NCBI GenBank assembly: GCA_018993265.1
Contig: JAGKSW010000102.1
Span: 1-47,088, forward strand
Reading direction: 5' to 3'
Length of the DNA stretch: 47,088 nt
Source of the DNA: Nostoc sp. TH1S01
GTDB lineage: Bacteria > Cyanobacteriota > Cyanobacteriia > Cyanobacteriales > Nostocaceae
Shown here: positions 10,324-31,972 of the stretch, piece by piece
How the letters are laid out: every line of letters starts with the position of its first letter
Position numbering within the stretch: position 1 is the first letter of the stretch
Made by a program: the position numbers and the translations under genes
The notes under the pieces: model-generated
Database searches by the model: none
What the model saw: the letters and a program-made list of their open reading frames with translations, nothing else
What the model was told of the DNA's origin: nothing

Positions 10324-13300
10324 TCAAGCAGATGTATTCGAGGATGTTAACTTAATTCCCAAAACTTGGGTGTAAGCGCCTCGTGCTTGAGTAACGCCAA
10401 TGGTGCGTTCGGCTGATTCTATCATCGGACGACGCAAACTCACAACTATAAACTGTGCTAGTTGTGCTTGTTGTTTGATCATTCTAGCTAATCGTTCTAC
10501 GTTTGCCCCGTCTAAAAACATATCTACTTCATCAAAGGCATAAAAAGGTGATGGGCGATAGCGTTGTAAGGCGAAAATAAAACTTAAGGCGGTGAGGGAT
10601 TTTTCACCTCCAGACATGGAAGCAAGTCGCTGTACTGGTTTACCTTTGGGGTGCGCGACTAAGTTTAAACCACTGTTAAAGGGATCTTCAGGATCATCGA
10701 GTTGCAGGTAGCCGTCGCCTTCTGAAAGGGTGGCGAAAATCGATTGAAAGTTTTCGTTTACAGCGTCAAAGGCTTCTTTAAAGGCGCGTTGTCGCAAGGT
10801 GGTAAAGTTTTCAATTCTTAATAATAATTCGGTGCGTTCGGCTTCTAAGGTTTGTAATTTTTCTGTGAGTTCTTGCAGGCGGTTTTGGGTGCGTTCGTAT
10901 TCTTCCAACGCCAACATATTTACAGGTTCCATTGCTTGCAAGCGTTTGGCAAGCGATCGCAATTCTTTCTGTAATTCTTCTAAATCTACCTGTTCTGGCA
11001 CTTCTGGTAAAGGGCTGGGTAATTCTGGAAGTAGTTCTCGCAATTGATTTTGTAAAGCTTCTAGTTCTTCCCGCCGCTTTTGTTGGGTTTCTTGCAGTTT
11101 TTCCAGTTCCCATTCTAATTGTTGCTGACGGAGTAAATGCGATCGCACTTCTTGTTCTATTGCGTCACGTTTTACCTTTTCTTCACCCAAACTTTTTTCC
11201 ATTTCGCTGAGTTTGGCGCGAGTTTCGGCGATTTGAGTGCTGAGTGCTGAGTGCTGAGTGATGAGTGTTTGGAGTTTCTGCTGTGAACTTACTTGTTCTT
11301 GATGATACTGAGCAATTTTTTGTTCGGCTTCTTGTATACGTTCTTGTAAACGCTGTTGCTGATTCTCCAAGTTTTTCAGCCGTTGTTCCGCTTCCCGTAA
11401 TGCGGATTCCCGTTGTTGTAATTGTTGCTCTTGGGTTTTAATTACCGCTTGAATTTGCTGCCATTCACTAGGCGTTTGAGATGCTTCTAACTCTGCTAAA
11501 ACATGACGTAATTGTTGTAATTGCGCTTCTTGCCCTGGTAAATCTTTATCCAAAATTTCTAGGCGAGATTGGGCGGCGGAGAATTTTTCGGTATTTTGGG
11601 CAAGTTGCGCTCGCGTTCCTTCTAACTGTGCCGTCAAAGCTTTAATATCTTTTTGCAACTGTTCTAATTGCAATTGCTGTTCGCGGCGTACTTGACGGGC
11701 TTCGGTGAGTTCTTGGGATAGCTGTTTAGTTTTGCTGGATAAGGATGCGATCGCATCAATACAACGATCTAAAATCCGTTCAATATCTGCCAAGCGATTT
11801 TTTAAAGCAATCGCTTCATCTGATTCCGCCGCTTCCCCTGTACCGAAGCGCAACGCCGAACGCTGATTTGTACTACCACCAGTCATTGCACCACTGGTTT
11901 CCAGCAATTCCCCGTCTAAGGTGACAATGCGATATAAACCAAGGTTTTTCCGCGCCTGTTCTAAGGTGGAGAATACGACTGTGTTACCGAAAACATAGTT
12001 AAACACATCTTTATAACGGCGATCGCACTCAACCAAATTCACCGCATAATTAACAAAGCCATTTGCTAATCGCAGCGTCGCATCTTGAGTAATTCTCGGA
12101 GCCTGAATCTTATTTAACGGTAAAAATGTCGCTCTCCCGGCGCGTTTTTGCTTGAGTAGTTCAATTCCGGCGGCGGCTATCCCATCATCATCTACCACAA
12201 TATGTCCCAACCTCGCACCAGCCGCAATTTCCAACGCCAACTGATAGCGGGGTTCCACCCGTCCCAAATGTACCACCAAACCACAAACCCCAGGCATCCC
12301 TGACTGAATAATTACCTTACTAGCTTGCGTCCCTTGGACTTCTTGCTGTGCTTGCGTTTGCGCCTCAATTTTATCTAACTGGCGTTGCTTTTCCCGTTGT
12401 TCATTAGAAAGCCGCTTTTGTGTATCTTGCTGAATTTGTAATTCTTGTTCTGTCGCCGCGAGATTTTGCGCTAGGTTTTGGATAGGTTCGTTAGAGACGT
12501 TAAATTCTGCCTCGACTCTTGCACATTCAGCTTGTTTTTCTGCCAACTGCGGTTCTAAAGTGGCAATTAGCTGAGTTTGTTCGTGAATGAGTTCTTGTAG
12601 CTGACTATTACGCTCTCTTAATTGTGCTTGCTCTGTGCGCTGCGGTTCTAGAGTTTGCAACAAAGTTTCAATTTGACGGTTGAGTGCAGTTTGTTGCTGT
12701 ACCCAAGCTTCCGAGGCGGTGGCGATTTCGGCGGCGGCTTCACGGGATTTTTGCAGTGCTTGTTCCGCCTCATCCCGTTGCTGTTGACAATATATAATCG
12801 ATTGCCGTTCTACATTCTGGGTTTCGGCAATTTCTCCCAAAGCTTGCTGATGCTGTTGAATTTCTTGCTGAGTTTGCACCAAGCGTTTAGCTGTTTCTTG
12901 AGAGGTTGCTTCTAACTCTGTTTGCTGACGCTGGAGTTGTTTGCGTTCGGCTTCTTGAGTAGCCAGAGTAGCTTGTACACCTAACAATTCCTCCTCACCC
13001 AAAGCTTTCACATGAGCATTGAGTTTTTCTAGTTCAGCAGTTTTCTGAGTAATGCCGACATTGAGAGTTTCTAATTGGAGTGTAAGGTCATTATGAGAGC
13101 GATCGCCATTTTGAATTTCCGTCGCTAACTTTTCTTGCTGTGCTTGCAGCGAACGCCACGATAACACCGCTTCCCAAGATTGCTTGTGCAGATATTCCGT
13201 CCGCAACTTTTGATATTTTTCCGCTTTCGCTCTATCTTGAGAAAGGCGATCGCGTTGTGCAGTTAACTCCGTTTCAATAATCCGACAACTATCTTCCTTC

Positions 13301-14016
13301 TCCTTCACCTCATCTAACGTACCCTTAGCTTGGTGAATCTTGCGATCAAACGCCGCCACCCCCGCCAACTCATCAATAATTTCCCGCCTTTCCCGCGCAT
13401 TCATCGAGATAATGCTAGTAACGTCCCCTTGCAGCACGACGTTATAGCCTTCAGGATAAATTCGCAGATTCTCCAACGCCTCATGCAACTCCGTCAGCGT
13501 ACAGGCAACACCATTGATATAGTAATTTGACGTGTAAGTTCCTTGATGAGTCACCCGCAACCGTCTTGTGACACTCCATTCAGTGCTGAGTGCTGAGTGC
13601 TGAGGAGCCACTGCGCTGGGCGGGTTCCCCGACTTGAAGCAAGTGGCGTTGCTGAGTGCTGAGTCGGTATTCTCGTTTTCTTCCTCTAATTCCTCCGCGC
13701 CTTCCTCACTTTGCGCCTTTGCGCCTTTGCGCGAAATAATTTCCTCCCCCGTCAAATCAAAAGTCACCGTGACACTAGCTTCCACAGACGCGCGTCCTTT
13801 AGCAGTTTGAGTATTATTTACCAGATCCGGCAGGCGATCGGCCCGCATTCCCTTAGAACTGGCAAGTCCCAAACAAAACAACAGCGCATCCAAAATATTC
13901 GACTTACCGGAACCATTCGGCCCAGATATGACAGTAAACCCCGGCAGCAAAGGGACTGAAGTAGTACCGCCGAAGGATTTGAAGTTGGTAAGTTCCACGC
14001 GCTTGACGTACACCAT
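10324..14016 (-). CDS. smc: Chromosome partition protein SMC
   Basis: SMC is the ATPase core of the condensin-like complex that loops and separates chromosomes. The 1230-residue protein has Walker A GPNGSGKSN (32-40), the Q-loop region VVLQGDVTSI, two long Gln/Glu/Leu-rich coiled coils flanking a hinge with GVCGLVVHLGRVEPRYQLAL and VVDDDGIAAAGIELL, and a C-terminal signature MSGGEKSLTAL followed by Walker B YAFDEVDMFLD. Start ATG at 14014-14016. Odd features: residues about 93-146, in the N-terminal ATPase lobe, are encoded by dispersed repeats (heptamers, GCGCAAAG units and a 28-base element), and a second heptamer block lies in the C-terminal coiled coil near 11234-11268. The words QHSALST occur twice in the protein for this reason. 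The gene upstream is a kinase-like protein, 179 bases away; the PRC-barrel gene follows. Confidence 0.96.
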   Translation of the reverse strand: MVYVKRVELTNFKSFGGTTSVPLLPGFTVISGPNGSGKSNILDALLFCLGLASSKGMRADRLPDLVNNTQTAKGRASVEASVTVTFDLTGEEIISRKGAKAQSEEGAEELEEENENTDSALSNATCFKSGNPPSAVAPQHSALSTEWSVTRRLRVTHQGTYTSNYYINGVACTLTELHEALENLRIYPEGYNVVLQGDVTSIISMNARERREIIDELAGVAAFDRKIHQAKGTLDEVKEKEDSCRIIETELTAQRDRLSQDRAKAEKYQKLRTEYLHKQSWEAVLSWRSLQAQQEKLATEIQNGDRSHNDLTLQLETLNVGITQKTAELEKLNAHVKALGEEELLGVQATLATQEAERKQLQRQQTELEATSQETAKRLVQTQQEIQQHQQALGEIAETQNVERQSIIYCQQQRDEAEQALQKSREAAAEIATASEAWVQQQTALNRQIETLLQTLEPQRTEQAQLRERNSQLQELIHEQTQLIATLEPQLAEKQAECARVEAEFNVSNEPIQNLAQNLAATEQELQIQQDTQKRLSNEQREKQRQLDKIEAQTQAQQEVQGTQASKVIIQSGMPGVCGLVVHLGRVEPRYQLALEIAAGARLGHIVVDDDGIAAAGIELLKQKRAGRATFLPLNKIQAPRITQDATLRLANGFVNYAVNLVECDRRYKDVFNYVFGNTVVFSTLEQARKNLGLYRIVTLDGELLETSGAMTGGSTNQRSALRFGTGEAAESDEAIALKNRLADIERILDRCIDAIASLSSKTKQLSQELTEARQVRREQQLQLEQLQKDIKALTAQLEGTRAQLAQNTEKFSAAQSRLEILDKDLPGQEAQLQQLRHVLAELEASQTPSEWQQIQAVIKTQEQQLQQRESALREAEQRLKNLENQQQRLQERIQEAEQKIAQYHQEQVSSQQKLQTLITQHSALSTQIAETRAKLSEMEKSLGEEKVKRDAIEQEVRSHLLRQQQLEWELEKLQETQQKRREELEALQNQLRELLPELPSPLPEVPEQVDLEELQKELRSLAKRLQAMEPVNMLALEEYERTQNRLQELTEKLQTLEAERTELLLRIENFTTLRQRAFKEAFDAVNENFQSIFATLSEGDGYLQLDDPEDPFNSGLNLVAHPKGKPVQRLASMSGGEKSLTALSFIFALQRYRPSPFYAFDEVDMFLDGANVERLARMIKQQAQLAQFIVVSLRRPMIESAERTIGVTQARGAYTQVLGIKLTSSNTSA
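11234..11268. repeat. Five heptamer repeats inside the smc coiled-coil region
   Basis: Five tandem copies of TGAGTGC (the last two are TGAGTGA and TGAGTGT) fill 35 bases within the smc coding sequence. Read on the minus strand they encode part of TLITQHSALSTQI, which keeps the frame and a roughly coiled-coil-compatible sequence. They match the intergenic heptamers at 2625-2656. Confidence 0.9.
13579..13733. repeat. Composite repeat insertion inside the smc ATPase-head coding sequence
   Basis: From right to left on the plus strand: a tract of CTTTGCGCC units (13709-13733); Glu-codon-rich sequence; a heptamer copy (13650-13664); a 28-base element (13613-13640) shared with 31889-31916; and a heptamer run (13580-13604). 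It interrupts the usual order TFDLTGEE ... WSVTRRLRVTHQG and adds about 54 residues without breaking the frame. Confidence 0.8.
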
Positions 14017-31734: not shown

Positions 31735-31972
31735 TCAATAACTTTTTTTTAACGAACCACAGAGACACAGAGAACGCAGAGAGAAGAAAAACTCCGCGTA
31801 ACTTTGCGTGGTGTTGCATATTTGCGGGATGAATTCAGACTTCTTGACAAAGCTGAAAGTCGATTCTTTGCGCCTTTGCGCGGCAGTCGCTTCAAGTCGG
31901 GAAACCCGCCCAACGCGCTGCCTTGCCTTTGCGCGAGACAAAATTCATCCCATTAATCACCAATGCCCAAAA
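31735..31972. repeat. Repeat-derived spacer after cbiO
   Basis: The gap is built from dispersed repeats: AACGAACCACAGAGACACAG followed by AGAACGCAGAG, then ACTCCGCGTAACTTTGCGTGG, then CTTTGCGCCTTTGCGCGG and a 28-base element (31889-31916) that recurs inside smc (13613-13640). It lies between convergent genes. No terminator other than these repeats is evident. Confidence 0.7.
31889..31916 (+). repeat. Intergenic copy of the element found inside smc
   Basis: This 28-base stretch (GCTTCAAGTCGGG followed by AAACCCGCCCAACGC) equals the reverse complement of 13613-13640 with two differences. In both places it sits next to CTTTGCGCC units, so the two are copies of one composite repeat. Confidence 0.85.

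Follow-up and report, generated by a model that had tools for sequence, protein, structure and literature searches.

Dispersed and tandem DNA repeats within an acidic loop of the SMC ATPase head in Nostoc and related cyanobacteria

In-frame repeats in bacterial genes are already known. The Rickettsia palindromic elements (RPE) of 105-146 bp occur in 19 reading frames, where they lie in-frame in conserved genes, and one of the products is active (Ogata et al. 2000, as covered in part of the review PMC2229807). The element described here from the smc gene of Nostoc sp. TH1S01 resembles RPE in being a dispersed palindrome inserted in frame in conserved genes. However, RPE are Rickettsia-specific in that part of the review and longer, whereas the Nostoc element is cyanobacterial, measures about 45 nt and is nested in heptamer and octamer arrays; besides, in the Nostoc-type family one loop has been struck repeatedly by unrelated repeats. 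Small palindromes inside ORFs, as in smc, are also described for the GTAG/CGTC-tagged REPs, many of them in DNA synthesis and repair genes, and differing REPs occupy about the same recB site in two Xanthomonas species (part of PMC3733652). Section 15 of that paper names no SMC case among the REP-bearing genes. The tags are mostly absent from the Nostoc element, GTAG being found in 1 and 2 and CGTC in 1 and 6 of 66 copies at its respective ends. In REPIN/RAYT systems the element sits beside a REP-associated tyrosine transposase, whereas no Nostoc element core (at up to 5 substitutions) was located within about 1.5 kb of any of the 10 Y1_Tnp matches in this genome. The element may be mobilised in trans.

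The small dispersed repeats (SDR) of Nostoc described by Elhai et al. in 2008 are reportedly 21-27 nt long, some of the families having a conserved hairpin with compensatory changes, and often embedded in tandem heptamers or nested. A conserved hairpin with compensatory changes is likewise present in 67 copies of the Nostoc element, but its unit is about 41-45 nt with a 24-nt core, so the 21-27 nt of the SDR could mean a part. Small dispersed repeats of cyanobacteria are also cited in part of PMC3116915. The G-rich heptamers of Nostoc PCC 7120 are the same kind of repeat as those found here, genome-wide and mostly intergenic, but they are under-represented in coding regions (part of PMC4692102) whereas here the arrays concentrate in one SMC loop. 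Titles and abstract openings in the open-licence literature yielded no report of repeats in the cyanobacterial SMC loop, and we found no earlier report of what appears to be new, namely that across a family many unrelated repeats have colonised a single SMC loop again and again while frame and charge stay constant.

The SMC head loop and its repeat layout

The window (the whole analysed stretch of 47,088 nucleotides) encodes an SMC protein of the bacterial condensin type, with PF02463 at residues 3-1214, PF06470 at 575-690 and a length in the class of about 1200 aa (Pfam). ORFs of at least 120 aa cover 80% of the window, yet 16 of its 20 period-7 TRF arrays fall outside these ORFs; of the remaining four, three lie in smc. 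The features are as follows.

10324..14016, minus strand: smc, an ORF of 1230 aa with Pfam SMC_N and SMC_hinge
13579..13758, minus strand: acidic SMC head loop, hypervariable, residues 87-146, with flanking strands 78-87 and 146-155 placed by a weak structure model
13709..13732, minus strand: three perfect GCGCAAAG octamers, peptide RKGAKAQ, from the sequence
13665..13708, minus strand: acidic stretch SEEGAEELEEENENTD, limits approximate, from the sequence
13650..13664, minus strand: ACTCAGC heptamer block, first in coding order, perfect, from the sequence
13605..13649, plus strand: 45-nt palindromic dispersed element, stem GCCACT..AGTGGC at 13607-13647, minus-strand translation approximately NATCFKSGNPPSAVAP; from genome copies, copy alignment and folding
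13582..13604, minus strand: second ACTCAGC heptamer block, perfect, peptide QHSALST, from the sequence
11234..11267, minus strand: ACTCAGC heptamer array in the SMC coiled coil, peptide TQHSALSTQ, from the sequence and SMC alignment
31882..31922, minus strand: second element copy, in a spacer, within CTTTGCGC/GCGCAAAG octamers (31866-31881 and after 31922), from the sequence

The loop is a 60-residue segment bounded by a conserved strand ending at F86 and by EWSVTRR (W147 on). In coding order its DNA runs from the octamers CGCGCAAAGGCGCAAAGGCGCAAAG through the acidic stretch, two ACTCAGC heptamers, the 45-nt element and more ACTCAGC units to ACTGAA, and the element occupies exactly the gap separating both heptamer blocks. 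The initial annotation had placed repeats at 13579-13733, where they indeed lie, but this span encodes SMC residues 95-146 and not 93-146 as assigned. Its 28-base element is likewise present, though as part of a unit of about 45 nt, and the further copy noted at 31889-31916 exists but is not an exact repeat, as 26 of 28 positions match 13613-13640. The outer stem of this spacer copy differs from that of the smc copy and is still largely complementary.

The AlphaFold model of SMC residues 1-230 was of low confidence (mean pLDDT 54.7, about 30 in the loop); it would be compatible with a disordered loop, and its first ten Foldseek matches were all SMC or condensin heads at rmsd 8.9-12.1. The array at 11234-11267, one of the three TRF arrays in smc, was considered as a second insertion and ruled out because the alignment is gapless in the 20 SMCs alignable there; without any length change, its three heptanucleotides equal one coiled-coil heptad.

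Recurrence, source and turnover of the loop repeats

Of the family's 145 genomes 144 yielded an SMC, and loop stretches were taken from 129 genomes, of which 123 belong to the family and 6 to other families of the order. An acidic loop was present at this SMC site in 127 of these 129 relatives (121 of the family and the 6 others), with 15 to 97 residues and a median of 50 in the 115 of a first, stricter parse. The equally long and conserved segment in all cyanobacterial SMCs that would have refuted the initial annotation was seen as regards presence and not as regards length and conservation. The two dropped from the loop statistics were G017, with a contig break, and G147, in whose smc (L157) the frame is lost inside or beside the loop heptamer array and the remaining stretch is open in another frame; this is either genuine slippage or an error of assembly. 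When 21 full SMCs were aligned, all gap-variable columns among 10 of the 11 genus SMCs were confined to residues 92-143, except for the last three residues of the protein; G006 was left out since its frame breaks. The smc of this single-contig genome (L072) has a frame shift in the coiled coil, with 889 aa before the stop, and is open downstream in another frame as far as printed.

Repeats were concentrated in the loop to a degree not met in the adjoining coding DNA. The 127 loops, 18,987 nt in total, held 71 exact period-7 arrays of at least 14 nt, spread over 49 loops with the other 78 lacking such an array, against 0 in the 89,618 nt of SMC coding DNA that flanks them; period-8 arrays numbered 56 in the 127 loops against 2 in the flanks. 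A second, named collection consisted of the best 80 of 289 loci, of which 34 were dropped as identical to loop DNA already counted; the 46 new loops, 6,693 nt in total, held 42 period-7 arrays, with at least one in 37 of them, and their flanks 0 in 32,568 nt. The longest arrays of the 49 loops belonged to 13 main heptamer types, which require at least 21 changes on a 127-row SMC tree built without the loop, a quick tree that left 54 of its 118 inner branches open. Different heptamers also occur within three sets of rows whose SMC flanks are identical.

The heptamers in the loop tend to be those of the surrounding genome. The ACTCAGC unit in three copies had 241 overlapping matches in the genome of the window and none when reversed, as in the heptamer tandem repeats of cyanobacteria, presumably the STRR. 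We compared genome-wide abundance for two heptamers, AAAATCC and ACTCAGC, in 118 genomes (G007, G003 and G010 left out). The genomes of the 17 AAAATCC loops were richer in AAAATCC (median 21 vs 5, p = 0.0002, Mann-Whitney) and those of 7 of the 9 ACTCAGC loops in ACTCAGC (46 vs 0, p = 0.00001), though kinship among species overstates the independence of the genomes and inflates these p-values. Abundance does not fix the content of the loop, as G123 has 439 ACTCAGC matches in its genome but AAAATCC in its loop, and G005 has 148 ACTCAGC matches but ACTCCCG.

A clade of 32 rows has acidic loops of 49-77 residues, and the heptamer array is absent from all 32. Its genomes carry up to 97 AAAATCC matches with zero in the loop, which implies that tolerance of the loop towards heptamers is not universal. 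The proposal that repeats were the route creating a new loop does not hold in view of this clade. As these 32 loops are acidic without a heptamer array, the loop is, on the sequences compared, older than the repeats, which filled or replaced an existing loop in the repeat-bearing lineage, and its present content there is young. Many rows of the clade (e.g. L015, L016, L018) end the repeat-free loop in a stretch like NRK.KIRA.PGGE, which may point to a functional role in that clade.

Small inserts of at least four kinds occupy the SMC loop of sister species. The element family of the window is present in the loop of G010 on the opposite strand, with a variant in G003 and perhaps G002. The G010 loop holds a second hairpin insert; in the genome of the window two other loci (L243 and L245) encode its peptide again, likewise flanked by heptamers. 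The third insert, CGGGCTAAAAGCCCCGCTACCGCTAACAG, is located in the loop of G008 with a near copy in G002 and is dispersed, with 22 matches in G008 and 35 in G002, one of each within smc. The fourth type, ACTTCGACT..CGCTCAGT, was found in the loops of G007, G009 and G016. Heptamer numbers in the loop also vary between the sister species. We considered whether these numbers exactly offset the element lengths modulo 3 and rejected it: compared with G001 the loop gains 66 nt, made up of the 45-nt unit and 21 nt of heptamers, both multiples of three, and the limits of the other loop inserts are ambiguous.

The palindromic element, its neighbours and other host genes

The genome search for more copies that had been proposed for the element was productive, as with up to 3 mismatches allowed this genome holds 70 copies of its 24-nt core and 0 of the reversed pattern, which exceeds chance. 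The core was also found in 11 of 11 genus genomes at up to 2 mismatches, with 2 to 55 copies each. We examined 69 of the 70 copies, leaving out C102:17-40, and used 68 for neighbour counts, 67 for the stem alignment and 66 for the tag test after dropping identical contexts and copies at contig ends. The outer stem GCCACT..AGTGGC is accompanied by an inner hairpin, CGGGTTCCCCG, and the stretch folds as single-stranded DNA at -11.9 kcal/mol (z -2.17), with an equally good fold in 8 of 200 shuffles. Compensating changes were seen across the 67 aligned copies at stem pairs (4,42), with C-G 28, G-C 25 and A-T 5; (7,39), with G-C 35 and C-G 23; and (8,37), with T-A 42 and C-G 15; and at the inner pair (20,24), with G-C 50 and C-G 16.

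Tandem repeats are frequent neighbours of the element. The ACTCAGC heptamer stands on both sides of 6 of 68 copies vs 2.2% of random positions in the same loci, and an octamer of the GCGCAAAG/GCGCAGAG type on at least one side of 17 of 68 copies vs 0.9%. The six heptamer-flanked copies have identical junctions on both sides despite differing cores, which fits either a favoured insertion site within the array or spread of the whole composite; insertion into arrays, as opposed to joint spread, seems the likelier course.

Arrays and composites in other ORFs indicate that SMC is not the sole host. PriA (L037) contains a nearly identical composite and peptide, flanked on each side by PriA domains. 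A U32 peptidase ORF (L045) carries the composite downstream of DUF3656 and uses a second frame; an ORF whose N-terminus is a caspase domain (L053) carries it past this domain, with a different core variant and in the third frame. For the PriA stretch that runs from SATPSLESW to YLSLPERI, 8 of the 11 genus genomes (L258-L268) gave a continuous reading, and in all 8 it is different and repeat-rich. The PriA frame of G006 does not run on beyond its repeat-filled segment. Among the 30 heptamer loci fetched, arrays were also located in an M20 peptidase ORF, just ahead of the Pfam domain, and within the domain of an M16 peptidase and of a UPF0102 protein.

Apart from these, the element was seen within two TnpB ORFs (L056, L199) and within transposase ORFs L192 (Pfam DDE), L193 and L220, alike by eye. 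By our own count 4 of the 69 examined copies lie inside host ORFs, though about 80% of the window is ORF; ORFs with the element near an edge or upstream of the likely start (e.g. L033, L040, L049, L057, L201, L215) were kept out of this count solely on the position of the element. The element is strongly depleted from host ORFs, as is expected if most such insertions are lost.

Open frame, negative charge and the explanations weighed

The claim that an SMC ATPase head absorbed nested dispersed and tandem repeats in frame was upheld, and the absorption recurs across the cyanobacterial family. No stop was found in any of the 127 parsed loops. As the parse demands both flanking motifs in one frame, parsed loops are in frame by design and the two failures among 129 are the measure; an open frame through 127 of 129 loops argues for translation of the loop segment, which on sequence grounds is probably translated. 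On the coding strand no frame of the heptamer-element-heptamer composite contains a stop, on the opposite strand every frame does, but 1961 of 20000 base shuffles of the composite are also open in three frames, so that such openness alone is not rare. Read in the SMC coding direction, the element consensus lacks stops in three frames; in the opposite direction it lacks them in two.

The net charge of the loop was negative in 127 of 127 (-26 to -3; -9 in the window) and in all 46 further loops of the second collection, compared with 423 of 948 flank windows of equal length, which ranged from -7 to +5. The five repeat peptides tested were neutral or basic, and therefore the negative charge must be borne by glutamates between the repeats.

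We consider it quite probable that the SMC head has an insertion-tolerant acidic surface loop in which repeats settle and turn over, filtered for an open frame and negative charge. The loop would sit on the surface at the tip of a beta-hairpin in the N-lobe of cyanobacterial SMC, long, acidic and probably disordered, and in the Nostoc-type lineage its exact sequence would matter little, its content being presumably near-neutral. Tandem repeats of the genome's own stock (heptamers and GCGCAAAG/GCGCAGAG octamers) may settle there and grow, shrink by slippage or be exchanged; such arrays, the preferred neighbours and probably the landing sites of the palindromic element of the window, would then receive elements by insertion. 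Insertions preserving the open frame and the negative charge of the loop would survive and others be removed. Whichever frame is used, a heptamer array is translated into one and the same cycle of seven residues; here the heptamer and element strands on the SMC coding strand are both stop-free in three frames, which should make survival likelier.

Alternatively, the loop may be functional, for example as an acidic tether or by restraining the binding of DNA or kleisin to the head, with repeats recruited under positive selection for length and composition. We regard this as possible though rather unlikely. A loop that is present and net negative in every parsed genome, looks conserved by eye in most of the 32-row clade and gives the window SMC some 50 residues more than its Pyrococcus counterpart in the region of residues 67-150 speaks for such a function, but the spread of lengths and the unrelated sequences in the repeat-bearing lineage speak against it, as does a charge kept by the glutamate-rich part between neutral or basic repeats. 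It is very improbable that smc is a contingency gene in which slippage by one heptamer shifts the frame and toggles SMC off and on: heptamer counts do differ among sister species and the frame of G147 is lost at its array, yet this was seen in 1 of 129 genomes, whose draft assembly is likely to be in error at the repeat, the G017 case is a contig break, and 127 of 129 are in frame. Least credible of all is an ordinary conserved cyanobacterial loop with coincidental low complexity, or mis-assembly at repeats, for although some loop is present in all parsed relatives and the G017 assembly breaks at it, repeat-bearing loops also occur in the single-contig genomes G008 and G006, the second collection shows the same enrichment, and two insert types match elements dispersed elsewhere with zero in the reversed-pattern controls.

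Under the preferred reading of an insertion-tolerant loop filtered for frame and charge, such loops should be masked in SMC alignments and handled carefully in draft assemblies. A more speculative extension, which we hold doubtful, is that the SMC and PriA loops are frame-buffered landing pads, where stop-free heptamer and octamer arrays, carried on the surface loops of proteins central to DNA maintenance, draw in small mobile elements and re-phase the frame by slippage; if true, essential proteins would keep gaining and swapping peptide segments, a lineage-wide route to new protein sequence. The family offers a natural many-species series in which the loop of one core chromosome protein has been repeatedly rewritten by identifiable DNA repeats. 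It makes testable how selfish repeats become protein and what selection demands of them, and the answer looks like frame and charge, not sequence.
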